Positions 3,038 to 38,069 of a stretch of DNA of 64,000 nt are shown here, piece by piece. Where the stretch lies: positions 1 through 64,000 of the forward strand of contig NZ_BMBP01000002.1 in assembly GCF_014634745.1 (NCBI RefSeq), read 5' to 3'. Numbering within the stretch: the first letter of the stretch is position 1; every line of letters begins with the position of its first letter. The DNA comes from Leuconostoc pseudomesenteroides KCTC 3652. Lineage in GTDB: Bacteria > Bacillota > Bacilli > Lactobacillales > Lactobacillaceae. A program made the translations under genes and the position numbers. The notes beneath the pieces are model-generated. The model did not search any database, was not told the origin of the DNA, and worked only from the letters and a program-made list of their open reading frames with translations.

Positions 3038-3071
3038 GCCATAAAAACTGTTAATAAAAATAATGAACTTT

Positions 3072-3322: not shown

Positions 3323-3345
3323 ACATGTGGTTTTCAACTTGACCG

Positions 3346-9931: not shown

Positions 9932-10774
9932 ATGTTGCAAAAACAACTTTTAATCGCAGGTTCAGTGCTTGGTGCGTTAGCATTAGGTCATCAAGCGGTC
10001 AACGCTGATACTGTGCCAACAACTGATACTAGTAAAGCGCAATCAGTACAAACCACATTACCTACTGTTAAAGCAGTAGTTTTAAATGCCACAGATGTCA
10101 CAACGAGTGATGCCAGTTCAACCGTAGATGACGGCACAACAGTTGACAATGGTGATGTGCCAAATGATGACGGCACGAACACAGATAATGGTGGTGGTTC
10201 TGCACCAAATGATGATGGCACGAATACGGATAATGGCGGTGGCTCTTCATCTAACGATGACGGTACAAATACTGATAATGGCGATGGTTCTTCATCAAAT
10301 GATGACGGTACAAACACTGATAATGGCGGTAGTTCTAATTCATCGGATAATGGTGGTGGTTCAAGCTCATCAGATAACGGTGGTAGTTCTTCATCGAGTG
10401 ATAATGGTGGTTCTTCATCAAGCAATAATAATGGCGGTTCAAGTTCATCGGATAATGGTAGCACCTCTCATGTTGTGCCTGTAACACCTGATAACAATGG
10501 TAATGTTGTCAACGTACCAACGCAAGTCGCTAGTGATGCTGATGTATCAAATGCTGTGAAAGCCTATAATCAAGCACTCGCAGACAATGGCAAAGATGCT
10601 TCGAATGCCAAAGTTAAGCAAGCAAAAGAAAACTTGGATAAAGCAATTGACAAAGCCTTGCCCAAAACACATGCGATAGAAAAATCATCAATGGGTGGTA
10701 GTGGTATCTTAGCATTGGCAACGTCTGGTTTAGTTGCTTTGGGTGGTTTGATTTACAAGCGTAAGCATCTATAA
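9932..10774 (+). CDS. LPxTH-anchored surface protein with Asp/Asn/Gly/Ser repeats
   Basis: A 280-residue exported protein: signal peptide (residues 1-25, cut after VNA), a Thr/Ser-rich segment, then tandem repeats of the type NDDGTNTDNGGGS (about residues 75-120) fading into SSSDNGG repeats, a short helical domain (AVKAYNQALADNGKD), and the anchor LPKTH with membrane span and KRKHL tail. The sorting motif matches that of the upstream adhesin, suggesting the same sortase, which is not in this window. AGGAGA lies at the start. The repeats are prone to slippage and length variation. Its role is unknown; it is probably a spacer or adhesin for the transfer apparatus. Confidence 0.7.
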   Translation: MLQKQLLIAGSVLGALALGHQAVNADTVPTTDTSKAQSVQTTLPTVKAVVLNATDVTTSDASSTVDDGTTVDNGDVPNDDGTNTDNGGGSAPNDDGTNTDNGGGSSSNDDGTNTDNGDGSSSNDDGTNTDNGGSSNSSDNGGGSSSSDNGGSSSSSDNGGSSSSNNNGGSSSSDNGSTSHVVPVTPDNNGNVVNVPTQVASDADVSNAVKAYNQALADNGKDASNAKVKQAKENLDKAIDKALPKTHAIEKSSMGGSGILALATSGLVALGGLIYKRKHL

Positions 10775-11003: not shown

Positions 11004-11040
11004 TTTATTAGTATAGCACAACAAAGGAAGGGGGTGAAAC

Positions 11041-11130
11041 ATGCATGGTCTCCCAAAACTCAAAGTGCATTTTGAGTCACAAAGAAACAAAAAAATGCCG
11101 ATCAATTTAGTTAAAAAATTTCATTATTAA
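11041..11130 (+). pseudogene. Vestigial duplicate of the tcpC 5' end (29 codons)
   Basis: The ribosome binding site and the first 12 codons (MHGLPKLKVHFE) repeat the start of tcpC at 12637 almost base for base (MRGLPKLKVNFE), then diverge and stop at 11128. The duplication flanks the ABC transporter cassette and marks where that cassette entered ahead of the transfer operon. A 29-residue peptide could still be made. Confidence 0.7.
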
Positions 11131-12608: not shown

Positions 12609-12636
12609 TTGATGAATTTACGAAAGGGGGTGTGAA

Positions 12637-13584
12637 ATGCGTGGTCTCCCAAAACTCAAAGTGAATTTTGAGTATGAAAAAAAGCAAAAGGAAAAAGCAG
12701 TTAGAATACCTAAAGCTCATACAATGAATTTAGGTAAGGTACGTAAGATAGTTCTATTATTTTTCATAGGGCTTTTTATTTACTTTAGTTATGTATTGGT
12801 ACTTGCTAATGCAATTGCTCAAAAGAATAAAACGTTGCGTGCAACGGTCACAACTTTGAGCAAAAAATTGGATAAAGCCAGTGCTGGTACAACCAGTTAC
12901 AATCCTGTTGTCGGACAATATCTTGCCAATTTCTTGACACTTTATTATTCATCATCAGATAGTAATGCTGATAGTCGTTCCCAAAAATTAAGGCAATATT
13001 TGGCAAGTAATATCACACTACCTAACAATTTAGGTAATTCCAAAATGAAGTTAGATAGTGCTAAATTAAATGGCATCTTCACTGTGGATAGTGTCAAAAC
13101 AGCACAGTATAGCTTAGTGGTTGAAGCGGACGGCAAACACAGTGATATGACGGTTAATGTACCGTATGCGCAGGAAAATGAAAAACTAACCGTGATAGGT
13201 TTTCCTTATGTGGCTAACACGATTGATAGTGTTGGACACATAGGGACTGCAAGATTTGATAAAACTGGTAAGACAATTAACGATAGTGAAGTCACGGCAA
13301 AAGTCGTTAAATTTACCAAACAATTTGCACAAAAATATGTATCATCTTCAACTAAAGATATGTCAATGTTAATGTCTGACCCTGTAGGGTTAAATGGGGC
13401 TGTTGATCTTTTGACGTTAGAGGATAGTAGTATCAAAGTAACAGGCACAAGTGAAAAGCCAGTTGTGACAGCGACAATGACAGTTCAAGTACATGGTACA
13501 AACATTATGCAAGTACAGACGATTAGGTTAGATTTGAAAAAGCAATCATCAACCTATTTTGTGACTAAATTTGTACAAGCATAG
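12637..13584 (+). CDS. tcpC: TcpC-like conjugal transfer protein (Tn916 Orf13 family)
   Basis: 315 residues with one N-terminal membrane helix (about 36-56) followed by an extracytoplasmic part with two NTF2-like halves, as in TcpC of pCW3 and Orf13 of Tn916. TcpC is an assembly component of the Gram-positive mating channel, functionally like VirB8. AAAGGGGG precedes the start. It begins the core transfer operon, followed 11 bases later by the small membrane gene. Assignment rests on overall layout and the segment PVVGQYLANFLTLYYSS rather than on a catalytic motif. Confidence 0.75.
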   Translation: MRGLPKLKVNFEYEKKQKEKAVRIPKAHTMNLGKVRKIVLLFFIGLFIYFSYVLVLANAIAQKNKTLRATVTTLSKKLDKASAGTTSYNPVVGQYLANFLTLYYSSSDSNADSRSQKLRQYLASNITLPNNLGNSKMKLDSAKLNGIFTVDSVKTAQYSLVVEADGKHSDMTVNVPYAQENEKLTVIGFPYVANTIDSVGHIGTARFDKTGKTINDSEVTAKVVKFTKQFAQKYVSSSTKDMSMLMSDPVGLNGAVDLLTLEDSSIKVTGTSEKPVVTATMTVQVHGTNIMQVQTIRLDLKKQSSTYFVTKFVQA

Positions 13585-15578: not shown

Positions 15579-15632
15579 TTTTTTTAGTGTTTGCAAATAC
15601 AGCAAGCACTTTTTATTTTGAAAGGAAAGCAC

Positions 15633-17669
15633 ATGTTAATAAAATTTTGTCGGAAGCTAATTATTTTGGCTTCTTTTTTGTTTGTTCTAGGTTTTGCACA
15701 AACGCAAGTATTCGCAGATGATACTAGTAATTCGAGTAGTTCCGTGATGTCTGATGATACTACTAAGGCAATTGATGATGCTTCAAAGCAAGCCGAAAAA
15801 GCTGTTGAGGAAGTAACCAATGATGCGGAAAAAAAATCTGGTGACACATCTTCCGCAAGTGACTATTCAGACGACTTGATTAAAAGTAATTTAGAAAAGA
15901 GAAAAATGGACTGGGTAAACAGTCATATTTTGCAAAACTATAAGTTTTATCATCAAGATAGTTCATTAACAGATGTTTCTTCTGGTGCGGCACATATTGT
16001 AACTGATCTGTTCACAGCTATTAACTTAAATATTGTTTATCCATTATTTGATAAGGGGTTATCAACGATGTTTGATTTAACGAATATTACTGATGGAATT
16101 AATGATGTTTTGGGTAGTGTGGGGCAATACTCACAAAAAGCTTGGCAAAGTGATGCAATAAAAAGTTTGTTGTACCTAGCCTTTGGGGCTGGACTAGTTT
16201 GGACGTTTGCTAAAAGTATTAAAAGTGGTGGCGGTTTAAAATCAATTCTCACAATAATTGTTATTGCGGTTATCGGTTCGGCTTGGGTTAGTGGTGGTAG
16301 CACAGTGTTAAGAACAATCAATACGTTGACTTCTAATGCGCAAACAGCCGTGTTTGTGGCGACAAGTGATATTGATGATAGCGGTTATACCTCAACTGGC
16401 GATGATTTTCAACGTACTCTAAGATACGCATATTTTACAAAAGCCGTTGAACGACCATTTTTGTTGGGAAATTATGGTGTTGCCACTATGTCAGATGCAG
16501 AAAAAAACAACGATAAAATGGGCAACCCTTATCGTTTAATCGGCGGTAATGTTGACGATACGACGCTTTCAGAATTTGCTGGTAAAAATGTTTATATTAA
16601 GAAGAAAGGCGGACAAGAATGGTATCAAGTCGCAATCGCATTTATGTCTCCAGTGATGTCGGTTGCCTATGGTATACCTTTACTAATGGTTGGTTTGGCT
16701 AATCTATTAGTTCAATTAGGGGCTATTTTACTGTATTATTTAGCGCCTTTTACAATTATGATTTCACTTCTTCCAAAATTTGCGAATAGTGCTTTGAAAA
16801 CGGCAATGGGTGCGCTTGGGTTACTCTTTGCTAAGGTCGGGCTACTATTTGGCATCATGTTTATTACTTGGGTTGGCAATGTTACTGATACAGTAGTGCC
16901 ACCAGTTGATAGTGCTAGTTCAATGTTGAACTCAATTGTTTATATTGTTTTGATGATTCTACTTTGGAAAAACAAAAGTTGGTTAGTACAAACGATTACT
17001 GGTTCAAGTGTTGCCAACAATGCTATGAACAAAATTAGTATGACAAGAGCAGGGCGTAAGGCATTGGGTACAGCAGGCGAAATGCGTGACAGTGCTAATC
17101 GCATGTATCAAGGTGCTCGTAATGGCATCAAACGTGGTAAAGACATGAAAGACAACTATAAAGACAAGCATAGTGATGAGTTTGATGATGATGCACTGCG
17201 TGATGAAATTGAACAGGAAGAACAAGCAAAGCGTAAGCAAGCTCGTAAAGACTACCTTTCAAAAGATATGGCAAAACATCAAGCACAAGTCAAAAAAGAC
17301 CGTGCTAGTCGTTTGAAGAATGCAATGCCAAACCAAGATACATCAGATACTTCGCAGACAAAAGATGATGGTGTGCCTGATAATACAGGGACGCATAGGG
17401 CAATCGCTGATGAAGTGACTTTGCCACGTTATCAACGGTCAAAGGAATTAAAACAAGTACCTGATACACCTGACAGCGCCACAGAGCCAAAAGGTCGTCC
17501 TTCAAGTAAAAGTTATGAAACTGGTTCTAAAGAGGCACAGACAAGACGTGAGGCACGTTCAAAGGTATTGAAGTCAAAAGATGATACCACACATTTTAAT
17601 CAACGCTTACAAGCAGATAATGAACAGCGTAAACAAAATAAACAAGATTTAGATAAGGAGTTGCGATGA
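15633..17669 (+). CDS. VirB6/TrbL-like polytopic channel protein (Tn916 Orf15 type)
   Basis: 678 residues from ATG 15633 behind AAAGGA. A signal-like first helix and a short acidic outer segment are followed by a set of membrane helices between about residues 170 and 440, then a long charged cytoplasmic tail (440-678) rich in Lys, Asp and Gln. This matches the VirB6-like proteins of Gram-positive mating channels (Orf15 of Tn916, PrgH/TcpH types). Segments such as LIQLGAILLYYLAPFTIMIS-like helices support the TrbL/VirB6 fold. It overlaps the next gene by 4 bases (ATGA). It is the likely inner-membrane core of the channel. Confidence 0.8.
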   Translation: MLIKFCRKLIILASFLFVLGFAQTQVFADDTSNSSSSVMSDDTTKAIDDASKQAEKAVEEVTNDAEKKSGDTSSASDYSDDLIKSNLEKRKMDWVNSHILQNYKFYHQDSSLTDVSSGAAHIVTDLFTAINLNIVYPLFDKGLSTMFDLTNITDGINDVLGSVGQYSQKAWQSDAIKSLLYLAFGAGLVWTFAKSIKSGGGLKSILTIIVIAVIGSAWVSGGSTVLRTINTLTSNAQTAVFVATSDIDDSGYTSTGDDFQRTLRYAYFTKAVERPFLLGNYGVATMSDAEKNNDKMGNPYRLIGGNVDDTTLSEFAGKNVYIKKKGGQEWYQVAIAFMSPVMSVAYGIPLLMVGLANLLVQLGAILLYYLAPFTIMISLLPKFANSALKTAMGALGLLFAKVGLLFGIMFITWVGNVTDTVVPPVDSASSMLNSIVYIVLMILLWKNKSWLVQTITGSSVANNAMNKISMTRAGRKALGTAGEMRDSANRMYQGARNGIKRGKDMKDNYKDKHSDEFDDDALRDEIEQEEQAKRKQARKDYLSKDMAKHQAQVKKDRASRLKNAMPNQDTSDTSQTKDDGVPDNTGTHRAIADEVTLPRYQRSKELKQVPDTPDSATEPKGRPSSKSYETGSKEAQTRREARSKVLKSKDDTTHFNQRLQADNEQRKQNKQDLDKELR

Positions 17670-18808
17670 AAAGACTTCTGAAAGGCTATTTAATAGCTAT
17701 TCTATCCCTTGTTTTTTTAATTATTGTCATTATTGGTATGTTTGCTGGTAACAGTGATCAGTGTCAATCAACGACAAGTGATGCCAATATCACAACTAGT
17801 GCTGATAAAGAAGCGGTTGCTAAGTCTTTGCATGACAACCTTAAAAAGATATCAGGTGTGACCGAAGCTGGTATTGCTGGATATTTAGGCAATACACAAC
17901 ATGAGAGTGGCTTTAATTCTAGCGTGATACAATCAAATGCGCCTTACAGTGAAAGTCAAGCAATGAACCCTAAAGTAAGTGGTTACGCTTTTGGTCTTAA
18001 TCAATGGGACAATTCGAGGCGTGTTGAGTTAATCAATTATGCTAAGTCAAAAAATAAGCCGTGGACTGATGCAAGCGTGCAGTATGATTTTGCGCTTAAT
18101 CATGATGGCACAAACTCTGACTTATTAAAGAAAGGTCTGAAAATGACTAACATTGATGATGCCACAGAATTTTTAAGAGCTAGTTGGGAACGTGGTGGCG
18201 CTGGGACAACAGCTACAAGACAAAGCTATGCTCGTTCTTGGTATGCTAAGTTTTCCAATGGTTCATCAGATACAGCCGTTGATACTGCCACAACTGGTGC
18301 AGAAACAACTCAAAATACTGATAACACAACTAATAATTCCAGTGGTTGCTCAACTAATGTGGCACAAGGTATGGGAACTAGTGGTGCGCCAGTTAAAGAA
18401 ATTCCTAGTGCTTATAAAAGCAAAATCAAGGACACGAACTTTACCGCTACTTCATCATCAAATACTTATCCATTCGGACAATGTACTTGGTATACCTATA
18501 ACCGTATGCAAGAATTAGGCACACCAGTAGAAAATGGTTTAGGTAATGGCGCTGATTGGGGTAAGAACGCTAAAGCAAAAGGTTACAAAACTGATAGTCA
18601 GCCACATGTTGGGTGGGCGGTTAGTTTCTCACAAGGCGCAGACGGTGCCGACCCGACTTACGGACACGTCGCCGTAGTTGAAGCGATCAGTGATGACGGT
18701 AAACATTTCTTAGTTAGTGAATGTAATGTTGTGGCATCAGGGACTGGTACAGTGAGTTTCCGTGAATTAACGGCTGGTCAAGGTGTGACCTTTATTCAAG
18801 GTAAATAA
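17666..18808 (+). CDS. Transfer-associated peptidoglycan hydrolase: phage-tail-lysozyme plus CHAP domains
   Basis: 380 residues. An N-terminal membrane helix (about 5-27) anchors it outside the cell. Residues 50-200 match the phage-tail-type lysozyme domain (GIAGYLGNTQHESGFN with the catalytic Glu; AFGLNQWDNSRR). A Ser/Thr linker leads to a CHAP amidase/endopeptidase domain with catalytic Cys273 (FGQCTWYTY) and His334 (YGHVAVVE). Both centres look intact. It corresponds to Tn916 Orf14, TcpG or PrgK, which open the wall for the mating channel. It overlaps the upstream gene by ATGA. Confidence 0.88.
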   Translation: MKRLLKGYLIAILSLVFLIIVIIGMFAGNSDQCQSTTSDANITTSADKEAVAKSLHDNLKKISGVTEAGIAGYLGNTQHESGFNSSVIQSNAPYSESQAMNPKVSGYAFGLNQWDNSRRVELINYAKSKNKPWTDASVQYDFALNHDGTNSDLLKKGLKMTNIDDATEFLRASWERGGAGTTATRQSYARSWYAKFSNGSSDTAVDTATTGAETTQNTDNTTNNSSGCSTNVAQGMGTSGAPVKEIPSAYKSKIKDTNFTATSSSNTYPFGQCTWYTYNRMQELGTPVENGLGNGADWGKNAKAKGYKTDSQPHVGWAVSFSQGADGADPTYGHVAVVEAISDDGKHFLVSECNVVASGTGTVSFRELTAGQGVTFIQGK

Positions 18809-20606: not shown

Positions 20607-21050
20607 GTGAAACATTATATCAAAGGCGGTAATGACACTAAAAAAGAAAATAAGAAGCAATTACCCAAACCAATTTTAATTATTGTCAATAAAGTATTAC
20701 CAGTCATTGTGTTACTAGTGGCTGGTTTTTTATTTATTCCATACGCATCAATGAATTTTCAAAATAATGCTGTGGATCATATCAATAAGAATAATGAAGC
20801 AGTGATGTTTTACAGTTCAACGTGTTCACATTGTCGAAAGGTCTATCCTAAAATCTTTTGGCACAATGTTTTGAATTTTAAAAACGCTGACAAGCAAATT
20901 CAAACAATCAATGTTCAAAACCCTAATAACAAGCATTACATTAGTGATTTTTCAATTCAAGAAACACCAACATTTATGAAACCAAATAACCCAGATATTC
21001 GGGTCGTTTCAACTGATGTACAAGTCATTAACGAATTTTCAGAAAGGTAG
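20607..21050 (+). CDS. Membrane-anchored thioredoxin-like protein
   Basis: 147 residues from a GTG start behind AAGGAG. A basic cytoplasmic start is followed by one membrane helix (about 25-46) and an outer thioredoxin-fold domain with the redox pair CSHC (Cys73, Cys76) and a cis-Pro region (ETPTF). It likely makes or repairs disulfides in exported transfer proteins or pilus parts. It ends 7 bases before virB4. Thiol enzymes are seen in some Gram-positive conjugation operons; the partner here is unknown. Confidence 0.75.
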   Translation: MKHYIKGGNDTKKENKKQLPKPILIIVNKVLPVIVLLVAGFLFIPYASMNFQNNAVDHINKNNEAVMFYSSTCSHCRKVYPKIFWHNVLNFKNADKQIQTINVQNPNNKHYISDFSIQETPTFMKPNNPDIRVVSTDVQVINEFSER

Positions 21051-21057
21051 GATAGGT

Positions 21058-23562
21058 ATGGCAAAGAATGTCAATGTAAAGTACGAAAACCCAGTTGTGC
21101 AGTATCAAGATAATTTACTACTGACAACAATTGGTGATGTGTGGGCTTATTATCAGTTGAAACCTTTTCAAATCAATGTCGCCAATGCACAAGACAAAAA
21201 CAATTTTAAAGAAACCTTTGTTGACGTGTTTGAGCGGTTACAAAAATATGATGATGTTGATTTGAAGTTGATTCCAGTTGATATGGATTTGGCAGGGCGT
21301 ATTCAAGGCACTAGTCCTGATTGGGCGAAAGATATATCAGATGTGGCGCAATACTATATGGGTCAAGAAGAAGTCGATATTTTGGAAAGTGAATTTAAAC
21401 CAGCTATTCGTGATGAATTTTATGTTGGGGTTAAGTTGAAAAATACCAGTGTTGGCGACGACTTAAAAGACAAATTTCAGTTTGCGACCGACCTTATTTT
21501 AAGACGTTTAGCAGAAACCATGCGTTATCAGGTCAAGTTTGATGACAAATTCTTTGAACGCTATCAAACCATGAATGATGATGTACTTGGTATTTTGCGA
21601 CCGTTAGACGCCACTAAGATGTCCGAAGAAAAGTTAATCAATATGTTGGGGTCAACGTATCATCATCAGGGCATAAAAGATTTCTCGAATATGCGTGATA
21701 CTGCTTTTGACTTAGCAAAATTGGGCATTGTGAAGCGTGAAACACAGGAAGAAACAGACTACATTAGCCACTTGGTTTTGAATTTGCCTGATAGATTAGA
21801 CAATTTAGCGCTTATTCCTGAATTACAATCGTTTAAATTCCCTGTTGAAGTTCATTTTAAAATCAACTTTCCACAACGTGACGGTTTCAAGGGAATGAAG
21901 CAAGAGACCAGAAGTTCAAAAGGGAAGTATAAAGATGAACTAGAAGATGCGTTACTTAGTGATGACGATAGTTCAAAGCGTTCTCGTACTAATTATGCTT
22001 TAGCACAAGATTTGGCTGATGTTATGGATAGTAAAGATGCCTTTATGCAGTGGTTACTTGTATTAGTGGTTCGTGATGATAATGTTGAGGGTCTCAAAAC
22101 AAAAATACGTGAAGTGAAGACAAGGTTATCAACTGTTAATCGTGACATAGAGGTCTTTCAACCTAGCTTTAATCAAGAGTTATTGTTATATCAAAATTTA
22201 CCAGCGACTAATTTAGGGGTATTTAAACGTTGGCGACAATTTACGAATGCGCCAGCACTTGCCCAGTTGATGTTTGGCACTAGTCATGAACTCGGTTCTC
22301 GAACAGGTTTTTATATCGGACGTGTCTTAGATACCAACCGTTATTTTACTATTGATAGTGCGGTGGCATCTTCAAGAACATTGTTGTTAATCAACCCAGT
22401 GATTGCTAACAAAGGTATTGCTGGAGCAAAAACCGATAGTCCCCATATAGCGATCACTGGCGATACAGGACAAGGAAAGTCTTTTTTAGTTAAAATTCTT
22501 TTGAATTACCTTGCAATGTTTGATGTGAAGCTACTCTATGTTGACCCAAAACAAGAAGTGAGACGTTGGTTTAAAGCATCACTTGAAAATAATGATAACC
22601 CGTTTTTCACTAAGCTCATGAACTCGTTTCATTATGTGACTTTGAATGCCAATGATAGTGATAATCGTGGTGTCCTTGACCCAATGCTCACGTTGAATAG
22701 TCAGAGTACAGTTGATGAAATACCTAGTGTCTTGACGTTAGTTAAAGAAATGTTGGTACAGGTTCGCTCAATCTCACAAGATATGGAACTTGATACGGCT
22801 CTAACAAATGCGATTAAACAAGTCTGTAACCAACGCTTAGCTGGCGAACAAATTGGTACAATGGCGATTATTGAAATTCTAAAAGCTGGCAATGAGAAGT
22901 CACAACAGTTAGCGAATTATTATGAGAGTGTTATTCCTGATAGTATGTTAAAACTTGCTTTTAGTGACGGACAAACGGATAGTATCGAATTTAATAATCA
23001 ACGGACAATTTTAGAAGTGACTGGTTTAGACTTGCCACATGCTGAACAAGAAGTACGTAGTTATACTGAAACGCAAAAATATTCGGTATCAATTATGTTG
23101 GCATTAGGTAAGTATTTAGAGAAGTTTGGACGTGAAGACACGAAACGGTTTAGTGCTGAAATTATTGATGAAGCGTGGATATTTAACGCTTCGCCTGCTG
23201 GTCGTAAAGTCTTGGACGGCATCAAGCGTTTGGGTCGTTCTGAAAACAATATGTTGATTTACTCTACTCAAAGAGTTGGTGATGTCAATGATGAAAAGAG
23301 TAATGGTCAATACGGACAAATATTTGCCTTTGATAGCGCTGATGATAGTGAACGTGAAAACATATTGCGACACTTTGGTTTGCCAGTCAATAAATCAAAT
23401 ATGGATATGTTAAGAGACTTAAAAAAAGGTCAATGTGTGTTTAGAGATATTTATGGTCGTGTTGGTAAGGTGGTTATTCATTCGCTATTTGAAGAATGGA
23501 CGAAAGCCTTTAAGACAGTTGATAAGAATGCTGGTGCAGAGCTTGAAGCTAAGTATGGATAA
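21058..23562 (+). CDS. VirB4-like ATPase of the mating channel (Tn916 Orf16 / ConE type)
   Basis: 834 residues from ATG 21058, behind AGGATAGG. Walker A is GDTGQGKS at 468-475, Walker B lies near EIIDEAW (about 700), and the late motif STQRVGD fits the VirB4/TraC ATPases. The N-terminal half is the family's membrane-associated domain. It powers assembly of, and transport through, the type IV secretion channel. It is full length with no break. Confidence 0.9.
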   Translation: MAKNVNVKYENPVVQYQDNLLLTTIGDVWAYYQLKPFQINVANAQDKNNFKETFVDVFERLQKYDDVDLKLIPVDMDLAGRIQGTSPDWAKDISDVAQYYMGQEEVDILESEFKPAIRDEFYVGVKLKNTSVGDDLKDKFQFATDLILRRLAETMRYQVKFDDKFFERYQTMNDDVLGILRPLDATKMSEEKLINMLGSTYHHQGIKDFSNMRDTAFDLAKLGIVKRETQEETDYISHLVLNLPDRLDNLALIPELQSFKFPVEVHFKINFPQRDGFKGMKQETRSSKGKYKDELEDALLSDDDSSKRSRTNYALAQDLADVMDSKDAFMQWLLVLVVRDDNVEGLKTKIREVKTRLSTVNRDIEVFQPSFNQELLLYQNLPATNLGVFKRWRQFTNAPALAQLMFGTSHELGSRTGFYIGRVLDTNRYFTIDSAVASSRTLLLINPVIANKGIAGAKTDSPHIAITGDTGQGKSFLVKILLNYLAMFDVKLLYVDPKQEVRRWFKASLENNDNPFFTKLMNSFHYVTLNANDSDNRGVLDPMLTLNSQSTVDEIPSVLTLVKEMLVQVRSISQDMELDTALTNAIKQVCNQRLAGEQIGTMAIIEILKAGNEKSQQLANYYESVIPDSMLKLAFSDGQTDSIEFNNQRTILEVTGLDLPHAEQEVRSYTETQKYSVSIMLALGKYLEKFGREDTKRFSAEIIDEAWIFNASPAGRKVLDGIKRLGRSENNMLIYSTQRVGDVNDEKSNGQYGQIFAFDSADDSERENILRHFGLPVNKSNMDMLRDLKKGQCVFRDIYGRVGKVVIHSLFEEWTKAFKTVDKNAGAELEAKYG

Positions 23563-25643: not shown

Positions 25644-27023
25644 ATGAAATATAAAACAATTAAATACAGTGATCAGTATTTAGCAAAGACTTTATTTAAA
25701 AGGACTTTGCTTTTTGTTTGGTCTTTAGTCACAGTTTGCTTTGGTTCTTGGTATTTGAATATTTTTCAATCGCTGATGCAAGAACAATATAGTTGGTGGT
25801 ATTTGTCGCCTATTGTTTTAAGTATTGTGTTGACTGTTTTGTTTGGTTGGGGTGTGTTTTGGTTTTACAAGAATTATGCACCAGAACATTCCGACTTTTT
25901 TTCAAAGTACCTGAAAACAGTTGAATTGCGCCAGATGATAAGCTTGTTGATTGTCTCTAAAGGGTTCTTTGATACCGCTAGTGATGAGAATGGGACATTT
26001 ATAGCTTATTTTCCAAAATTGAAATTAAAGGTACTACACAAAATAGGTCAACTTATTTTACAAGAGCCAGTAGACGGTCGGAAATATATGGAAAGTTTTT
26101 CTAAAAATGAGTTTGATAATGTTGTTGAAACAGCATTACTTGCTGATAGACAAACAACTGAATTTAGTAAGAATAAAATGGTTAGTACCTTTGCTTTTGA
26201 CCCAATTAAATTTAGACGACAGTTAAAAGAATTGAAACCTAAAAAAGGGTTATTGCAAATTTCAAAAGGTATTGATTGGAAGTATGATACTTTCTACAAT
26301 GCTTTAATATCAGGTAATGTTGGTACTGGCAAGTCGTATACCATGTTTGCGATTATCGGGCAATTGTTACAAATTACTAAGTATGTCGATATTATTGACC
26401 CAAAACGGTCTGATTTGGCTAGTTTGAAATATGTTGATGAATTAAAGGGACGTGTTCATAGTACGGCATCTGAAATTAACAATGCCGTGATTAAGTATTA
26501 TCAGTTAATGATGAAGCGTGCAGAACGTATGGAAGAATTAAAGGCATCAGGTCACATTGGCACTTATAAGGAATTTAGTTTTGAACCTTGCTTTTTAATC
26601 TTTGATGAGTTTGGTGCGTTTGTTGAAATGAATGATCGATTAGCTTATGACGACCCAATTAAAGCAAGCTATGATACAGCAATGTCTAATTTGAATGAGA
26701 TAGCTATGCTGGGACGTGAACTTGGTTTTTATATTTTGATTGGTATGCAGAGACCTGATGCAGGTTCTTTGCCAATGGCAGTACGAAACCAATTGAATAT
26801 GCGTATTAACATGGGAGTGCCAACACCAGAAATTGAAAAAATGGTATTCCCTGATAATGAAAAACAATTGCGTCCTTTGTCATCACATTTGAAAGGGTGG
26901 GGCTTTATTAAGATTGGAGACAGTCAGGTTAGATCATTTTTTGCACCAGAAGTACCAAAAGATTTTAATTTACATGAATACATGTGTGAGAATATCGCAA
27001 TAAGAGAAAGTCAGGGAAAATAA
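25644..27023 (+). CDS. tcpA: TcpA/FtsK-type coupling protein (Tn916 Orf21, ConQ)
   Basis: 459 residues. Two membrane helices (about 19-40 and 51-73) are followed by an FtsK/SpoIIIE-like ATPase: Walker A GNVGTGKS at 224-231 and Walker B CFLIFDEFG near 316-324. It brings the relaxase-DNA complex to the channel. Its last base is shared with the first base of the next gene. The position just before oriT and mobT matches Tn916 and ICEBs1. Confidence 0.88.
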   Translation: MKYKTIKYSDQYLAKTLFKRTLLFVWSLVTVCFGSWYLNIFQSLMQEQYSWWYLSPIVLSIVLTVLFGWGVFWFYKNYAPEHSDFFSKYLKTVELRQMISLLIVSKGFFDTASDENGTFIAYFPKLKLKVLHKIGQLILQEPVDGRKYMESFSKNEFDNVVETALLADRQTTEFSKNKMVSTFAFDPIKFRRQLKELKPKKGLLQISKGIDWKYDTFYNALISGNVGTGKSYTMFAIIGQLLQITKYVDIIDPKRSDLASLKYVDELKGRVHSTASEINNAVIKYYQLMMKRAERMEELKASGHIGTYKEFSFEPCFLIFDEFGAFVEMNDRLAYDDPIKASYDTAMSNLNEIAMLGRELGFYILIGMQRPDAGSLPMAVRNQLNMRINMGVPTPEIEKMVFPDNEKQLRPLSSHLKGWGFIKIGDSQVRSFFAPEVPKDFNLHEYMCENIAIRESQGK

Positions 27024-27612: not shown

Positions 27613-27909
27613 ATGGCTTTAGAAGTTAAAAAAATTCAATCTTTGTCCGCTCAATCAATTGAAGATTTGAAGGCAATTGAAAAGATAGGTGGACTTGAAC
27701 ACCTTGCTCAACTAAGTGATGAACTTAAAAAAGCAATGGCAGATGAAGAACAGCTACGTGCTGTTAGTCCAATGCTGCCACCTTACTTTGCTGAACTACG
27801 CAAGAACTTAGGTTTCTTGCTTGGTACGGCTAAGTCCTTGCAAACACACGGTGTCAATCGTACAAAAGATATTCAAGGTTTGCTCGATCAATTGTCACAT
27901 ATCAAGTAA
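27613..27909 (+). CDS. Hypothetical helical protein before oriT
   Basis: 98 residues, soluble, with repeated helical stretches (LSAQSIEDLKAIEKIGGLEHL; PYFAELRKNLGFLLGTAKSL). GTAGG lies before the start. It ends 70 bases before the structured origin region. A role as relaxosome accessory is possible from position only. Confidence 0.5.
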   Translation: MALEVKKIQSLSAQSIEDLKAIEKIGGLEHLAQLSDELKKAMADEEQLRAVSPMLPPYFAELRKNLGFLLGTAKSLQTHGVNRTKDIQGLLDQLSHIK

Positions 27910-28301: not shown

Positions 28302-29954
28302 ATGATAACGATTAACAATGAACCAAAAGCATATACACCTATATTTCTAGGGACAACACAACATAGCTTACGGTTATCGTTGGGAATACTTATCATGGTT
28401 GGTATGAAGTTGAATGATGAAATTATTGAGACTTATAACGTAACCGTATCAGCTATTGAATTGGGTCAATTACCTAATATCGGTAGTAAAATTGCGATTG
28501 ATGAAATTACTGGTAGTGAGTTATCGGGTTTCAAAGCAAAAATTAGGCAGTCTGATGAAAAAATACAAAACACTGTTTCTACTGAACTAGAAAACTTAAT
28601 TGAGTTAAAAAACGTTGGTCAATACCAACTATTGAAAGGACAAAAAGATATGACACAAGAATTAAACGTACCAGAACTATCAAACAATAATTTGATATTG
28701 ATGCGACAACTACTTGAAGTAACACAATCAGAGCTAGCCAAAAAAATTGGTGTGAGTGAGAGAACAGTTTGGGGTATAGAGAACGGAACTCAAAAAATAT
28801 CAGATAAGTTTGTTGATAAATTGCTGTTGGTCTATCCAGAATTAGCTGAAAGTATTGAGGTTCAATTTGACTGGGTTTCTCTAACGTTCCCAGATTTAAC
28901 TTCAAAGCAAGTGATTGATGATGTGTTGCGATTGCAGGAAAATCTGTTTTTAGAACGTCCTACATCTCAAAACTTTTATACTCGTGAAATGGCATTTGCT
29001 GGCGAAAAAAATATTTACATACAAGACTTTGCACCAGTGAAAAACCCAGAAACACAAGCTATGGATCAAAAATTTGGGACAACGCTTTATTTAACTGGTA
29101 AAGGCACACGATTATTTGAAAAAGCTTTGCTAGAGCAAAACATGAATTGGCGTGATTTCTTTGAAAAGGCAAGATTATATCGGGGACATCTCACTCGATT
29201 AGATATTGCGATAAACGATAAATGGGGTCTGCTAAACATGAATGACCTTGTTAAGGCTGTTCAAGAAAAACGTTTTTGGAGTAAATCAAAATCTTATGCG
29301 GTTCATGGCAACGTTGATGACGGCTGGACGGTTGATTTTGGTAAGTCACCTTTTGTTATTCGTGCTTATGACAAACACAAAGAACAAGCAAATAAAGGCT
29401 ATGACACTGATGTAAAAACTCGTGTGGAATTAGAATTACATCAGGATAAAGCAGAGTATGTACTTGATGAGTGGCTTAATCATGATAAGAAATTGGTGGA
29501 TATAACCTTTGATATTTTGTATACCTATTTGTGGTTTACTAATGAGCCGATAGATGCACAAAAGCTAAAATCAGATAAAGTGCGTGAAGTGATTGAGCAA
29601 ACAGTTGAGCCGATGCCTGCTTGGTCTTTGCTGACAGCTTTAGGAAATCGAATGAAATTTGTTAGACAACCTAAAAAACAAAGTGTGGAACGTATTGAAA
29701 AATGGGTTTTACAGTCGGTTGTGCCTAGTCTGGCAGTGTTAAAGAAAACAGGACACTGGCATGAAATTATTGAAGCGATCAATAGTGTTGAGTTGTCGGC
29801 AGAACATCAAAAATTGGTAGAAGCTAATTTGGTCAACGCAATTACAAATGCAAAAAGTGTTTTGCATCAAGGTAATATCAATTTCGATAAGGAAAAGGAA
29901 AAGTATGATGAAGAAACAGCAGAATTTGAGAAAAAAGCCAACCTACCATTTTGA
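28302..29954 (+). CDS. mobT: MobT relaxase with N-terminal extension (Tn916 Orf20 / NicK family)
   Basis: 550 residues. Residues 1-116 are an unrecognised extension. Residues 127-180 are an XRE-type helix-turn-helix (LEVTQSELAKKIGVSERTVWGIENG), and the remainder is the Rep_trans-type nicking domain (FDWVSLTFPDL; LTRLDIAIND; FVIRAYDKHKEQ). It nicks oriT and pilots one strand into the recipient. GAAAGG sets the 28302 start, but a second site AAAGGAC precedes an in-frame ATG at 28650, which would give a normal-sized MobT of 434 residues. Confidence 0.88.
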   Translation: MITINNEPKAYTPIFLGTTQHSLRLSLGILIMVGMKLNDEIIETYNVTVSAIELGQLPNIGSKIAIDEITGSELSGFKAKIRQSDEKIQNTVSTELENLIELKNVGQYQLLKGQKDMTQELNVPELSNNNLILMRQLLEVTQSELAKKIGVSERTVWGIENGTQKISDKFVDKLLLVYPELAESIEVQFDWVSLTFPDLTSKQVIDDVLRLQENLFLERPTSQNFYTREMAFAGEKNIYIQDFAPVKNPETQAMDQKFGTTLYLTGKGTRLFEKALLEQNMNWRDFFEKARLYRGHLTRLDIAINDKWGLLNMNDLVKAVQEKRFWSKSKSYAVHGNVDDGWTVDFGKSPFVIRAYDKHKEQANKGYDTDVKTRVELELHQDKAEYVLDEWLNHDKKLVDITFDILYTYLWFTNEPIDAQKLKSDKVREVIEQTVEPMPAWSLLTALGNRMKFVRQPKKQSVERIEKWVLQSVVPSLAVLKKTGHWHEIIEAINSVELSAEHQKLVEANLVNAITNAKSVLHQGNINFDKEKEKYDEETAEFEKKANLPF

Positions 29955-32815: not shown

Positions 32816-33223
32816 ATGTCAAAAAAAATATGGTTAAATTCAGAACAATTAGAACTGTATATTAAGCAGTTAGAACGGTTTAGAGACTTATATAGTCAAC
32901 TAGACCAAACACTAGAAAGTGATAGACTAGGCTTTCAATTCAAAGCTGGTGCGCCTAACTTTCAAACAACCTTAAGCGTATCAATGCAATTACAAGCTAA
33001 AATTAGACAAGCACAATCTCAAACATACGGAGATGTGCTTTTTTTTAACAAAGAATTAGCATCTAGGGTACAAGATTTGGTTTCAAAATCAATTGAGTTA
33101 ACCTTTGCGTATCGTGATTTAGACTTGCTGATTAAGGGAACTGATCGCAACACTGAAAGTGGGTTGAATAAGATTGAAGAACAGTTGCATCAAGCAAAAA
33201 GGCAACTTGCCGAAAAACATTAA
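32816..33223 (+). CDS. Small helical protein, duplicated as a fragment at the left edge
   Basis: 135 residues, soluble, rich in Gln, Leu, Lys and Glu, predicted largely helical or coiled-coil. AAGGGAC precedes the start. The last 70 codons recur as a truncated copy at 290-509. The family is not recognised. Its presence at both ends of the accessory region suggests that it belongs to the mobile element or to a related plasmid backbone. Confidence 0.6.
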   Translation: MSKKIWLNSEQLELYIKQLERFRDLYSQLDQTLESDRLGFQFKAGAPNFQTTLSVSMQLQAKIRQAQSQTYGDVLFFNKELASRVQDLVSKSIELTFAYRDLDLLIKGTDRNTESGLNKIEEQLHQAKRQLAEKH

Positions 33224-33271
33224 TAGTTTTTATGCTTGGAATCAAACTCGTTTTTGTTGTACACTGATTTT

Positions 33272-34804
33272 ATGTTTAAAAAAAGAATTAGACTCAATAC
33301 ATCAAAGTTGTCAGTAGTATTATATGGCGCACTTATAGGTTTTTTAACAGGAATAGTTGTTAGCGTTTTTCGATGGACAATTGAAAAATTGCTTCAATTC
33401 GTGCAAGCGTTGTATGTAGATATCTCACATGGCAATATAACGGTAATATTTTTTTTGATGATAGCCAATTTTATAGGCTTTTTAATTGTTGCATGGATGT
33501 TAAACAAAGAACCTAATATATCCGGTTCCGGCATTCCACAGGTTGAAGGTCTATTATTAGGTGAACTAAAAATAAACTGGTGGTCGACATTGTGGCGAAA
33601 ATTTATATCAGGAATTTTGGCTATTGGTAGTGGTTTGATGCTGGGGCGGGAAGGTCCCTCAATTCAACTGGGTGCATCAATTGGTCAGGGTGTAGCATCA
33701 TATAAACATCTTAGTCATAATCAATCGAAAGGGCTTATAGCCAGTGGTGCCGCTGCTGGTTTATCAGCTGCATTCAATGCACCTTTAGCCGGCGTTATGT
33801 TTGTATTGGAAGAAGTCTATCACAGTATTTCTCCCTTTGTCTGGGTTGGTGCATTGACAGGCGCAAGCGTTTCGGATTTTGTCTCTACGGTTTTGTTTGG
33901 CCAAACACCAGTTTTATCTGTTGGCCACTTAAGTGTTTTCCCGGTACAGTTATATGGCTTATTGTTGGTATTTGGTATTATATTAGGTTTATTTGGCTTT
34001 TTATATCAAAAAATTTTACTATTCAGTTTAAATTGTTACAGTAAAATTAAGGTCCCTAAATATTTATACGGTATGGTGCCGTTTACTTTGGTGATACCAA
34101 TTGGAATCTTATGGCCAAATCTTTTAGGTGGGGGCAATAATTTAATTTTGTCGCTGAAAGAAACACCTATGACAATGAAAATGATCATCGTAATTTTGTT
34201 AGTTCGATTTGTTTTCTCAATGATTAGTTATGGTTCCGGTCTGCCAGGAGGCATCTTTTTACCTATTTTGACTTTAGGTGCACTAAGTGGCGCATTAATG
34301 GCTCATATATTTGTCTATGTACATCTCATGAGTGCAAATTATGCTTTAAACTTTATTGTGATCGGTATGGCCGGTTATTTCGCATGCATTGGTAAAGCAC
34401 CATTTACTGCAATTATTCTTATTTTTGAGATGGTGGGGAGTGTGACCCACATTTTACCTTTAGCACTTGTAAGTTTAGTAGCCTACTTAGTAGTTGATCT
34501 TTTAAATGGTGCACCAATATATGAATCTTTACTAGAACGTTTGTTAAAAAGAAAACCAGTGCATCTAACGATGTCTTCCATGACAACCACGGAAGTGACA
34601 GTTCTTGCTGGTGGTATCTTAGAAGATCAACAAATAAGAGATTTGCAACTGGGTTCCAATAGTTTGATTACACTGGTCAAGAGATCTGAACATGTACTGA
34701 TTCCAAAGGGCGATTTAGTATTACGAGCTGGTGATATTATTTATATTAGAGCGAGTCAAAATGACACACGACTGATAAGAAATCAAATAAACGTCAAGAA
34801 TTGA
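33272..34804 (+). CDS. ClC-type chloride/proton antiporter with TrkA-C domain
   Basis: 510 residues from ATG 33272. The ClC selectivity motifs are present: GSGIP at 85-89, GREGP at 125-129 with the gating Glu127, and GSGLPGG later. About ten to twelve membrane helices are followed by a cytoplasmic TrkA-C regulatory domain (about 425-510). It exchanges chloride for protons and helps with acid stress. No Shine-Dalgarno sequence is seen; a TACACT (33260-33265) only 6 bases before ATG with TTGGAA 18 bases before it hints at a nearly leaderless mRNA. Confidence 0.88.
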   Translation: MFKKRIRLNTSKLSVVLYGALIGFLTGIVVSVFRWTIEKLLQFVQALYVDISHGNITVIFFLMIANFIGFLIVAWMLNKEPNISGSGIPQVEGLLLGELKINWWSTLWRKFISGILAIGSGLMLGREGPSIQLGASIGQGVASYKHLSHNQSKGLIASGAAAGLSAAFNAPLAGVMFVLEEVYHSISPFVWVGALTGASVSDFVSTVLFGQTPVLSVGHLSVFPVQLYGLLLVFGIILGLFGFLYQKILLFSLNCYSKIKVPKYLYGMVPFTLVIPIGILWPNLLGGGNNLILSLKETPMTMKMIIVILLVRFVFSMISYGSGLPGGIFLPILTLGALSGALMAHIFVYVHLMSANYALNFIVIGMAGYFACIGKAPFTAIILIFEMVGSVTHILPLALVSLVAYLVVDLLNGAPIYESLLERLLKRKPVHLTMSSMTTTEVTVLAGGILEDQQIRDLQLGSNSLITLVKRSEHVLIPKGDLVLRAGDIIYIRASQNDTRLIRNQINVKN

Positions 34805-34842: not shown

Positions 34843-34995
34843 TAACTTCAAAAACAAAATCTTCATTATGCTTAATACTTTAATATATTGTGTTTTAAAA
34901 AATAAAATAATAAGCAACATTGTGAAATGTTAAACTTGTTATAAGGGGTAAATACCTAGACTAAAATAATCATAATTAAGGAGCAAATATGTTTT

Positions 34996-36174
34996 ATGAG
35001 TGATGAAACAACACAAAAACGCAAACGACAACCACGGTTGAATGAGAACCAACGTCACATGATAGAATATTTATGGAATATTGAGAAAATGACACAAGCA
35101 GATATCGCAAGACGTTTAGGCTATACACCGTCATCAATATTACGTGAATTGCACCGTGGCAATACGCTTGATTTCTCACATTTAGATAGACGAACACTGT
35201 TGAATATGGACATACACGCACGTATCAAGTATTCGGCACAGCGTGGACAATATATTGCTTTGAAAAAGCGCAGTAAAATGGGTACTGGTCTCAAACTGAC
35301 ACCAGAATTAAAAGAAATCATTGAAACCTGGGTCAATGTTGAGCATTGGACGCCAGAGCAAATTGCTGGTAATGTGCAAGATGTTGATGTGTCCGCATCT
35401 GTTATTAGGTTATGGTCTCGGCAAGGCCTTATCAATATTCGTAAACAGAAATATCATCGTCAAAATGGGACACCCAAAGAAAGAGCTGTTGCGCAAACTA
35501 AACGTGATAAGGAACGTGAAATTGCACGTTTGCGTGAGCAACTAAAAAATGACGGAGAATTAGTCCGCCATTCAATATTTGATCGTTCACAAGTTGTGGA
35601 AAGTCGTAAACAGTTTGGTCATTGGGAAATTGATTTAGTGTTGCCAGCTAAAATGAATAATCAGCGTTATCAAGATACCACAGCAATTATGACACTGACT
35701 GAACGCAAAACTCGGTTTACTGCCTTAATATTAGTCCGTAGTAAGAAGTCCAATGATATGATAAATGCCTTTAAGTTGTTTTATGAACGATATGGCAAAG
35801 CCGTACGGACTATCACAGCCGATAATGGTTCTGAATTTATTTCATGGGACTTTTTAGAGTACGTCCAGAAACAACTAAAAATCAAGTTATATTATGCGAC
35901 ACCGTCATCACCACAGCAACGTGGATCCAATGAAAATCGAAATCGTAAGTTACGTGATTGGTATCCTAAAGGCACTTCTTTTAAAGACGTGAAGCAACGA
36001 CAATTAGATGAAGTGGCTTCAAAAATGAATGCGATGCCACTTAGACAAGCTCTGAATGGAAAAAGACCAATGGTAGTCTTTGCACAAGAATATAAAGCGA
36101 TGCAACGTTATCGTAGAGCTTATGAAAAACGTAAACAGCGAATGCTTGAAGAACGCCAAAATGATGAAAAATAA
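34996..36174 (+). CDS. IS30-family transposase (copy B)
   Basis: 392 residues with the same motifs as copy A: helix-turn-helix MTQADIARRLGYTPSSILRE, catalytic HWEIDLV, ITADNGSEF and PSSPQQRGSNENRN. The protein is nearly the same as copy A, yet many synonymous sites differ, pointing to older divergence with selection to keep the protein. TAAGGAG precedes the start. It is intact and possibly active. Confidence 0.93.
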   Translation: MSDETTQKRKRQPRLNENQRHMIEYLWNIEKMTQADIARRLGYTPSSILRELHRGNTLDFSHLDRRTLLNMDIHARIKYSAQRGQYIALKKRSKMGTGLKLTPELKEIIETWVNVEHWTPEQIAGNVQDVDVSASVIRLWSRQGLINIRKQKYHRQNGTPKERAVAQTKRDKEREIARLREQLKNDGELVRHSIFDRSQVVESRKQFGHWEIDLVLPAKMNNQRYQDTTAIMTLTERKTRFTALILVRSKKSNDMINAFKLFYERYGKAVRTITADNGSEFISWDFLEYVQKQLKIKLYYATPSSPQQRGSNENRNRKLRDWYPKGTSFKDVKQRQLDEVASKMNAMPLRQALNGKRPMVVFAQEYKAMQRYRRAYEKRKQRMLEERQNDEK

Positions 36175-36208
36175 GCCGTAAAAGCTGGTAATAAAAATAA
36201 TGAACTTT

Positions 36209-36231
36209 AGACACTAGATGTGTCTTTTTTT
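36209..36231 (+). terminator. Terminator of the IS30 copy B transposase
   Basis: AGACAC (36209-36214) pairs with GTGTCT (36220-36225), followed by a T-run, as in copy A. Confidence 0.8.
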
Positions 36232-36317
36232 ATTGTGCTTAAAATATAAATATTTGAAACGGTTTTATTGGCTGAAACATTTGATATAATAGTGAGTAAT
36301 TAGATTGCTAAAAGCCT

Positions 36318-36458
36318 TTGTATAGACGTTCTAAAAGCGTGGACGGTCCGTTTACTTTTAAACACAATCATGTTATTCTTGATGAAGTTGTGCCTTACTT
36401 AAAAAATAATCGTCGTTTATTTTACACAGAAGTTACTGGTAGATTACCAGAACATTAA
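36318..36458 (+). CDS. IS30-linked small ORF (46 residues), unknown
   Basis: An open frame with a TTG start follows an extended -10 motif by about 30 bases. The product has a basic start (YRRSKS), FTFKHNHVILDEVVPYL, KNNRRLFYTEV and TGRLPEH at the end. The same frame, the same length, but with two stops, lies behind copy A. No Shine-Dalgarno sequence is clear. It may be a small protein carried by the element or the remains of a larger gene. Confidence 0.4.
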   Translation: MYRRSKSVDGPFTFKHNHVILDEVVPYLKNNRRLFYTEVTGRLPEH

Positions 36459-36478
36459 ACATGTGGTGTTTGGGTTGA

Positions 36479-36809
36479 CATCCGCCAGACATTCGTTAGT
36501 TAACATAATATATATTATCGAAAGTTGGATATCAAGGGCAGATGTCAATAGAATTTCTCTATCTGTAAAGGTTTGTTAAAATGTCTGTCACATTCTGTAA
36601 TTTGTTATGTAAATGAAATGAATTTAGCGTATAGCTATTCAGAAAGTATACACTTCTTACATGAAATTTTCCAATGCTAGAACATGCCATAAACAGTGGC
36701 TTTTAGCGCTATTTCACATAGTCATTCCGATTTGTATGTCGTTATTATGACACAAAAAAAAGACTAATCACTAGTCTTTGTGTGAGCCTATTTAACTTTT
36801 AAGCGTTTC
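36479..36809. other. Gene-free stretch with minus-strand terminator
   Basis: No coding frame is supported. An A-run (36754-36760) followed by AGACTA/TAGTCT (36761-36766, 36772-36777) is the terminator of the minus-strand transposase that ends at 36810. The rest shows nothing I can name. Confidence 0.6.
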
Positions 36810-38069
36810 TTAACTTATATCATCAATATTAACCTTGACATCTTTATCATCATCTATATCTGTCAAATTAACATCTTTTAAGGCATTGATTTCTTCGGCT
36901 AACTTCTGCTCATATTTCTTGATTTTCTGCTTGATGTATCGTTCTTTATAGCGTTCCATACTACGATATTCTTTATTAAAACGCTCATAAGGCGTTGAGC
37001 CTTGCAGTGCAATACGCATCGGCTTACGGTTGATTTTATCAGCGATCACTTCTAAATCTTTTTGCTTGATGGTTCTAAAGGTTGTTTTCTTCGGGATAAA
37101 GACACGTAGCTCACGGTTCTTATATTCGTTTGTCCCCCTTTCCTGTGGTGAAGAGGGTGTTGCGTAGTATATTTTTGTCTTATATTCTTGTTGTACAACT
37201 TCTAAGAAGTCCCATGACATGAACTCAATACCATTATCGGCTGTGATTGTGCGTACCCATTTGCCATAATTTTTATAGAAGTATCTAAAGCCTTTAATGA
37301 CATCAAATGACTGTTTACTATCAATCTTAACCAGTACATAAAATCGTGTTTTTCGTTCTACCAATGTTAAAATAGCGCTTTTATCGTTAATTTCGCCATT
37401 CTTACCCTTTGCTGGAAGAACTAAATCAATTTCCCAATGACCGAATTGTCGGCGAGTATTTATCTTTGGTGGTCGCTCATAGATTGAATGACGGACTAGA
37501 ATACCCTGTGACTTTAATTGAGAACGCAACCTATCAATCTCACGCTGTTTTTGATACTGCGTTTTAATTTTAACTTTTTCTGCATCTGTATTGTTGGCTC
37601 GTTTTCGGTAATAAGGGCGCAAATAGATTTTACCCTGTCTCGCCCAATTTCTAATCGTTGATGCCGAGACTTCAATATCTGATACATGCGCTTCAGCGAT
37701 TTGTTCGGGTGTCCAATGTTCAACATTGACCCAATGCTCAATCAGCTCTTTTAATTCATCTGTCAATAATTTTGAACCATTACCACGTCTCACACTTCTT
37801 TGAGTGGCGATAAATTGACCACGTAAGGCAGAATACTTGATACGTGAATGAATTTCAAGATTATACAATTGACGTTTACTTAAATTACTAAAATCAAAGA
37901 TATTGCCTTGTTTTAATTCTCTAGAAATAGCCGACTGCGAGCGATTAAGTTTTCTAGCAATTTCAGACTGCGTTAGTTTTTCATCATTCCACATGTGTTC
38001 AATCAAATGTCTATCATTTTCATGAATACGTGGATATTTTATCTGGTCTGTTGGTTTTTTTTTGGTCAT
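36810..38069 (-). CDS. IS30-family transposase (divergent third copy)
   Basis: 419 residues. The helix-turn-helix LTQSEIARKLNRSQSAISRE, the catalytic HWEIDLV, ITADNGIEF and PSSPQERGTNEYKN are all present. It is clearly related to the other two but far more diverged, and it carries an extra acidic C-terminal tail (NLTDIDDDKDVKVNIDD). It lies in the opposite orientation and is intact. Together with copy B it forms a tail-to-tail IS pair at the right edge of the accessory region. Confidence 0.92.
   Translation of the reverse strand: MTKKKPTDQIKYPRIHENDRHLIEHMWNDEKLTQSEIARKLNRSQSAISRELKQGNIFDFSNLSKRQLYNLEIHSRIKYSALRGQFIATQRSVRRGNGSKLLTDELKELIEHWVNVEHWTPEQIAEAHVSDIEVSASTIRNWARQGKIYLRPYYRKRANNTDAEKVKIKTQYQKQREIDRLRSQLKSQGILVRHSIYERPPKINTRRQFGHWEIDLVLPAKGKNGEINDKSAILTLVERKTRFYVLVKIDSKQSFDVIKGFRYFYKNYGKWVRTITADNGIEFMSWDFLEVVQQEYKTKIYYATPSSPQERGTNEYKNRELRVFIPKKTTFRTIKQKDLEVIADKINRKPMRIALQGSTPYERFNKEYRSMERYKERYIKQKIKKYEQKLAEEINALKDVNLTDIDDDKDVKVNIDDIS

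Follow-up and report, generated by a model that had tools for sequence, protein, structure and literature searches.

IS30-family insertion sequences are short, carry terminal inverted repeats and duplicate 2–3 bp of their target, and the conjugative element ICE6013 has short 3-bp repeats. The chromosomal dif site resolves chromosome dimers and separates joined chromosomes. Among the closest described systems, ICE6013 of Staphylococcus aureus is a conjugative element with an IS30-like DDE transposase as its recombinase, and the available parts of the sources (PMC3942029, PMC7913919, PMC9779932) describe it as closer to ICEBs1 than to Tn5801 and credit the transposase with versatility of integration site. 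TnGBS and the Mycoplasma ICEs are conjugative elements with a DDE transposase of the Mutator superfamily, and TnGBS has a preferred target (PMC3942029, available part). Insertion sequences of the IS1202 family (e.g., ISAjo2 and ISAba71) are DDE elements placed at dif or pdif in a fixed orientation and at a fixed distance, and three members carry an additional ORF (accessible passages of PMC10132070 and PMC12907356). E. coli IS30 targets near-palindromic hot spots as well as its own ends, which gives end-to-end junctions (PMC9333248, accessible excerpt). A literature search covering the best-ranked matches, with subscription papers outside its scope, named no IS30-type element at dif in the portions of text it reached: PMC12907356 and PMC12445084, which mention IS30 and a dif site, concern ISAba125 and an integration vector, and PMC4494060 merely locates dif at the terminus.

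We analysed a 64,000-nucleotide stretch of Leuconostoc DNA (hereafter, the window) together with 19 genomes of the genus and 397 of the family. Like ICE6013, as far as the available description of the latter goes, the window's element pairs an IS30-type transposase with a conjugation module, and the described proximity of ICE6013 to ICEBs1 rather than Tn5801 fits the MobT-type relaxase found here. Unlike the versatile sites in that description, in 16 of 18 genomes a right-end (RE) motif keeps a distance of 22–23 bp to dif, and a 12–14 bp duplication accompanies one subtype. IS1202-family elements, in the accessible accounts, lie 5 bp from the XerC site with 5-bp duplications, whereas the elements here are large, belong to the IS30 family and stand 11 bp from dif on either side. 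The TnGBS target is given as 15–17 bp upstream of sigma-A promoters, in contrast to 11 bp from dif, and E. coli IS30, from the same transposase family, is described with 2-bp duplications, in contrast to a 300-bp tail and tens of kilobases here. The closest known systems are thus ICE6013 (an IS30-type ICE) and the IS1202 family (dif targeting).

A conserved tail behind two IS30-type transposases

The features on which the analysis of the tail rests are as follows.

1859–3037, + strand: transposase A (IS30 type), interpreted as the final gene of another element in tandem; 94% identical to B
3038–3343, + strand: tail of copy A; ends in TTGAC and directly abuts the left end proposed for the following element
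34996–36174, + strand: transposase B (IS30-type DDE), the element's last gene (NCBIfam NF033563, E 1.6e-56, 192 bits, cut-off 80; Pfam HTH_38 and rve)
36175–36486, + strand: non-coding tail of B, read as RE; terminator, promoter-like box, conserved blocks and terminal GTTGACATCCGCC
36280–36290, + strand: extended -10 box TTTGATATAAT, promoter-like by sequence
36318–36458, + strand: 47-codon frame (46 residues and a stop) with a TTG start, judged non-genic

The sequence-only reading of this DNA had claimed that about 300 bases downstream of both transposases are conserved, and the alignment bore this out: the tail behind B (36175–36470) and its counterpart behind A (3038–3334) share 85.5–86% identity over 297 aligned bases. 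The terminator, the extended -10 box and the 47-codon frame of equal length, which that reading had also described, are all present in the alignment of the two tails. In the B tail, the hairpin GACAC-TAGAT-GTGTC lies at 36210–36224, with a T run reaching 36231, and the terminal GTTGACATCCGCC occupies 36474–36486. The similarity of the two tails is beyond chance, because matches to the B tail of more than 100 bases occur in nine of the 19 genus genomes (G015 and G017 match over only 26–33 bases); in the family, 29 of 397 genomes match, outside the genus over 40 bases at most. Across 12 tails of the same type (type i, see below) the -10 box TTTGATATAAT is invariant in ten and reads TTTGATATACT in the remaining two. 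The tail thus has conserved DNA features, including a candidate promoter box.

The possibility that the shared part is host flank was excluded, since the tail accompanies the transposase into differing surroundings; it is part of the element, as had been proposed. The end of the element was placed too early at 36478: the B tail runs to 36486, and a dif site follows 11 bases beyond. The tail is most likely no hidden gene but non-coding DNA that forms the right end of a large conjugative element. A similar tail end was seen by eye in another genus of the family (L046, around position 1500), about 11–12 bp from a dif-like 11-6-11 site.

The probable right end lies 11 bp outside dif

Beyond the tail of B, the following features were identified.

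36487–36497, no strand: 11 bp separating RE from dif, interpreted as host target sequence; spacing recurs in the genus
36498–36525, − strand: chromosomal dif site, 28 bp, by pattern match
36526–36536, no strand: 11-bp spacer on the far side of dif, preceding the end of element C
36537–36809, − strand: end region of the convergent element C (right end plus tail), with the tip GGCAGATGTCAA at 36537–36548
36810–38069, − strand: IS30-type transposase C, facing dif from the other side; 55% identical to B

The dif site is the sole match in the window at three or fewer mismatches (none in 100 shuffles), and its exact 18-base core is unique in the window's genome, where four further places match with 2–3 mismatches. 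GC skew changes sign between intervals centred on 36 and 38 kb, and genes run mostly on the + strand ahead of dif and mostly on the − strand beyond it, as expected at a terminus. The dif pattern was matched in 18 of the 19 genus genomes (none in G003), once in 17 of these and twice in G008, and a slightly shorter pattern was matched in 333 of 397 family genomes, mostly as a single site. The XerC and XerD arms were named after the XerD consensus quoted in the available part of PMC10132070. A muramoyltetrapeptide carboxypeptidase-like gene lies beside copy A (645–1613 of the window), and carboxypeptidase-like frames were seen by eye across dif, on the C side, in G005 and G006.

Spacing was assessed from TTGAC, TTGCA or TTGAA in the 40 bases flanking each side of 18 dif loci of the genus (the second dif-like site of G008, L098, lies outside this set), a motif picked after the element ends had been viewed. 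Twenty of 29 occurrences were exactly 23 bases from dif, corresponding to the 12-base tip plus 11 bases (15 on the XerD side, five on the XerC side), with one further occurrence at 22 and one at 24. At least one side carried the motif at 22–23 bp in 16 of the 18 genomes (absent there in G008 and G017), compared with one of 30 control dif loci, those retrieved as loci by the family-wide dif search, from six other genera, 16 of them from one genus; that control (L152, TTGCA) is without a transposase nearby. At L096 (G017) and L082 (G004) a contig end lies near dif and one flank is short. Using a profile derived from the dif-side genes, an IS30-type transposase was found within 1.5 kb of dif at 12 of the 18 genus loci versus none of the 30 controls. 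Fifteen of 16 dif-near transposase genes (17 rows before a small second fragment at L097 was merged with its neighbour) have their 3' end towards dif; the exception is a generic IS30-type gene in G014, while the generic one in G018 does face dif. The transposase is farther from dif in G001 and G005, with cargo between gene and tail. Because G004, G005 and G006 share an identical 11-mer but differ in their element ends, we read the 11-mer as target and the end as element. The right end of these elements would accordingly be placed 11 bp outside dif, which appears to be left intact.

A proposed 33-kb element with conjugation genes

A 33-kb unit extends from the putative left end LE3 at 3344 to the RE at 36486 and holds conjugation genes, cargo and, at its end, transposase B.

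3344–3440, + strand: putative left end LE3; recurs as LE3/LE4 in the genus
12637–13584, + strand: TcpC-like conjugation protein (Pfam PF12642, E 1.6e-21)
15591–17669, + strand: CD3337/EF1877-type membrane protein, called VirB6-like (NCBIfam NF046089, E 7.9e-70)
17666–18808, + strand: lysozyme/CHAP cell-wall hydrolase, from the profile scan
21016–23562, + strand: VirB4/TcpF-like ATPase (Pfam AAA_10, E 1.6e-98; NCBIfam TcpF, E 9e-67, below cut-off)
25644–27023, + strand: putative coupling protein, TcpA-like by position (weak TraB match, E 1.2e-4; Pfam blank)
27613–27909, + strand: 98-residue conserved protein (p98), kept in other elements
28302–29954, + strand: Rep_trans/MobT-type relaxase (Pfam Rep_trans, E 3.3e-25, above cut-off)
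32816–33223, + strand: 135-residue conserved protein (p135) 5' of the transposase (weak DUF3958), syntenic in other elements
33236–34804, + strand: ClC-type chloride channel gene, cargo (Pfam, E 2.2e-95)

Against the NCBIfam MobT model the relaxase reached E 3.1e-34 at 118 bits, below the cut-off of 600. The gene order TcpA-p98-MobT-p135-transposase recurs in G005 (L104) and G015 (L064, the same locus as L105) and in part in G018 (L110) and L063, with the TcpA-like gene kept beside MobT in all four of these loci, and Fructobacillus retains p98-MobT-p135-transposase at 44–50% identity. No tyrosine or serine recombinase was found among the scanned ORFs of the element, a set covering almost every ORF of 120 residues or more from 3344 to 36486 and few smaller ones.

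Several further features were observed in the window: within the element, an adhesin-like protein with a KxYKxGKxW signal (8074–9843), after which comes a gene carrying four 45-base repeats (10150–10329); a 66-base direct repeat (83% identity; 11028–11093 and 12624–12689), the second copy of which overlaps the start of the TcpC-like gene; and, near the left end of the element, a DUF6119 gene (5969–7579, E 1.7e-75) that is possibly cargo.

Left ends, junctions and target duplication

LE3 or the related LE4 was found in ten of the 19 genus genomes. In 14 of 17 distinct contexts the left neighbour of LE3/LE4 is an RE, and in 12 of the 17 the older RE breaks exactly after TTGAC or TTGCA, with its last 7 bp missing. 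No target duplication was found at LE3/LE4 junctions, including the window's own, and at L123, L128 and L132, where LE3/LE4 have other left flanks, no copy of the 11-mer was seen by eye. The RE-to-LE3/LE4 junctions may fit the insertion of IS30 next to its own ends, as described in the accessible excerpt of PMC9333248, which leaves the missing 7 bp of RE unaccounted for. Inverted-repeat similarity between left and right ends is weak: the score was reached by 5 of 500 shuffles for REiii/LE3 and 7 of 500 for REiii/LE4, and the other pairs are weaker (26 of 500 for REi/LE3, 31 of 500 for REi/LE4 and 26 of 500 for REii/LE2). REiii is similar to LE3 and LE4 at matching depth.

The left end LE2 occurs in nine of the 19 genus genomes, eight of which have an identified dif, and is preceded by RE and an 11-mer in eight of the nine. 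In six of the eight with a dif (G001, G009, G010, G011, G014 and G018), the LE2 11-mer equals the dif-side 11-mer at 11 of 11 letters, and in G011 the adjacent base (G instead of A) agrees as well; the disagreeing cases are G016 (4 of 11) and G000 (1 of 11). The G000 copy of LE2 lies on contig C15 with an unrelated left flank repeating window positions 152–217, a segment that by eye resembles the end of an IS transposase. Between unlike genomes, 11-mers agreed at nine or more letters in 4 of 154 comparisons. From these comparisons, insertion of this one subtype appears to duplicate 12–14 bp, made up of the 11 bp and 1–3 bases of dif. The units from LE2 to REii measure about 38 kb in G001, 51 kb in G010, 74 kb in G018 and 78 kb in G014; in G001 and G018 an LE3 element stands between REii and dif, and the duplicated pair therefore encloses two elements. 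In G010 the first genes of the LE2 unit encode a RepA_N protein and a MobL relaxase, and a RepA-like frame was seen by eye after LE2 in G001 (L065).

Transposase types, cargo and passengers

Transposases A, B and C scored 187–192 bits against the IS30 equivalog model (cut-off 80), and representatives of types ii, iii and iv and of Fructobacillus scored 182–219 bits, also above the cut-off. Membership of the IS1202 family was rejected, the best NCBIfam model being IS30. The gene next to the RE belongs to type i in four genomes (that of the window, G007, G012 and G018), to type ii in G009, G010, G011, G013 and G014, to type iii in L. carnosum (L068) and G005, and to type iv in G002; across dif this place is taken by transposase C, and Fructobacillus has a further form. 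From 87 transposase frames, 43 were distinct in the core stretch, and six of these, namely one RepA fusion and five that were fragments or shortened duplicates, were left off the tree. In the resulting tree of 37 proteins, which has long branches and an unsure root, the dif-associated transposases formed two groups with other IS30-type rows between them. An open frame at 3278–4417 (+) of L023, which comes from a plasmid of Enterococcus faecalis, combines an N-terminus that looks RepA-like by eye with the C-terminal portion of the IS30-type transposase.

Viral contigs scanned with transposase B yielded no relative, and the plasmid scan returned five records, each covering 33–35% of the protein. 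An SMR efflux gene stands between a truncated transposase and the tail in five plasmid records, in three of which the tail is shortened, and L013 carries a MazG and Lysine_decarbox/SLOG gene pair in the same position. On the L023 plasmid, 11 bp separate the end of the tail from a dif-like 11-6-11 site, the arms of which were judged by eye. Among the type iii copies, L068 carries a kinase gene (Pfam); a short-chain dehydrogenase (L065) and a polymerase-like gene (L062) were recognised by eye. A separate observation concerns L060 (L. holzapfelii), where Rfam matched the Listeria small RNA rli28 at 5940–6124 (−) with 69.2 bits (gathering threshold 45); a tail that is truncated and inverted lies nearby, close to dif.

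What is inserted at dif

A reading in which simple IS30-type insertion sequences occupy a hot spot beside dif, with the conjugation genes as chance neighbours, is unlikely. It agrees with the family of the transposase and with element C, which has an enoyl-reductase-type gene within about 350 bases of it, implying that short forms exist. However, the MobT/p135 gene order is conserved in several Leuconostoc and in Fructobacillus, and the LE2-to-REii units inside duplicated 11-mers span 38–78 kb. A 1.6-kb insertion sequence from about 34895 to 36479 was considered and rejected: its left edge is sharp, with short homology, yet by eye it lacks a partner repeat at the right end, and LE2 elements duplicate the 11-mer, unlike an insertion sequence of the IS30 type. 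We read the edge at about 34895 as a candidate cargo boundary.

It is also improbable that the elements are integrated by host XerCD in the manner of IMEX, with the IS30-type transposases as passengers. In favour of this, the elements are found at dif or, on the L023 plasmid, at a dif-like site, and IMEX-like elements require no integrase of their own. Such Xer-integrated elements have a dif-type site at both ends, since exchange inside dif would leave one at each, whereas the window's genome has a single dif, as do 17 of 18 genomes (G008 has two). Moreover, the duplicated bases lie mostly outside dif, and several forms of IS30-type genes stand at the RE.

We consider it likely that the tail is the right end of a dif-addressed family of IS30-type conjugative or mobilizable elements, with the transposase acting as integrase. 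The features that point to this are the transposase family, the conjugation synteny, the fixed spacing, the 11-mer duplicated in one subtype and the RE-to-left-end junctions.

The tail as a gene or an RNA

The sequence-only reading had raised a passenger gene or a non-coding RNA in the 3' part of the element. Passengers do occur in some copies, as described above; the 46-residue frame and a structured RNA did not hold up. A small regulatory or target-guiding RNA started at the promoter-like box is very improbable: by eye, conservation in type-i tails is highest in the box and the block that follows, and TATAAT-like boxes also occur in other tail types, but the consensus folding energy was equalled by 22 of 60 (type i), 14 of 60 (type ii) and 9 of 60 (type iii) column shuffles of 12, 7 and 10 tails, respectively. 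Covariation terms of the consensus folds were −0.86, −1.96 and +0.09 for types i, ii and iii, Rfam gave no match in the tails searched, and the 11-bp target differs between hosts. Structured RNA in the tail is thus unsupported by the folding shuffles and by Rfam.

As had been noted earlier, the frame is open behind B and interrupted by two internal stops behind A, where it ends at the same alignment position. Only B, G007, G018 and G012, four of the 12 type-i tails, have it uninterrupted, and in the other eight it is broken. The selection check showed no purifying selection: pN/pS was 0.53–1.33 in the six pairs of the four open tails (4–10 changes per pair), compared with 0.026–0.063 for three pairs of transposases as reference. 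The copy pGL4, in which the tail is shortened, was excluded from the frame and fold tests. The frame is judged not to be a gene because it is broken in 8 of 12 tails and its pN/pS far exceeds that of the transposase, so a passenger peptide gene that decayed behind A, with its four open copies in favour, is hardly credible.

Proposed mechanism

Under the preferred reading, a dif-addressed conjugative family, an IS30-type DDE transposase near the right end would serve as the integrase of conjugative or mobilizable elements and would recognise dif-like sites. The RE would come to lie 11 bp away from the 28-bp dif, usually beside the XerD arm and more rarely beside the XerC arm, and dif would be kept whole. 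Insertion of one subtype would duplicate the 11 bp together with one to three bases of dif. Newcomers would take the same spot or join the RE of an older element, which would lead to a tandem pile-up at the terminus. The tail would act as end DNA, presumably bound by the transposase. We infer from the arrangement that the transposase carries out integration, that it reads dif or dif-bound Xer proteins and that the elements have continued to move.

More tentatively, and with somewhat less than even confidence, we propose that either dif itself or the XerCD proteins on it serve as a landmark for IS30-type transposases of two or more lineages. Elements of the conjugative, mobilizable and plasmid-like kinds would be placed 11 bp outside dif, with a 12–14 bp duplication in one lineage, dif left working and older REs as a second target, and the terminus of Leuconostoc and relatives would be a stacking dock for elements of about 30–80 kb.

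Implications

If confirmed, dif would join the targets of conjugative elements driven by DDE transposases, and IS30-type transposases would share dif targeting with the IS1202 family. Confirmation would also offer a direct test of whether a transposase recognises the Xer complex. It would further provide a search rule for such elements, namely to search at a distance of 11 bp from dif on both sides. Because dif resolves chromosome dimers, settling beside it may give a dependable address at low cost, and an element next to an unbroken dif would find that address in nearly every new host.
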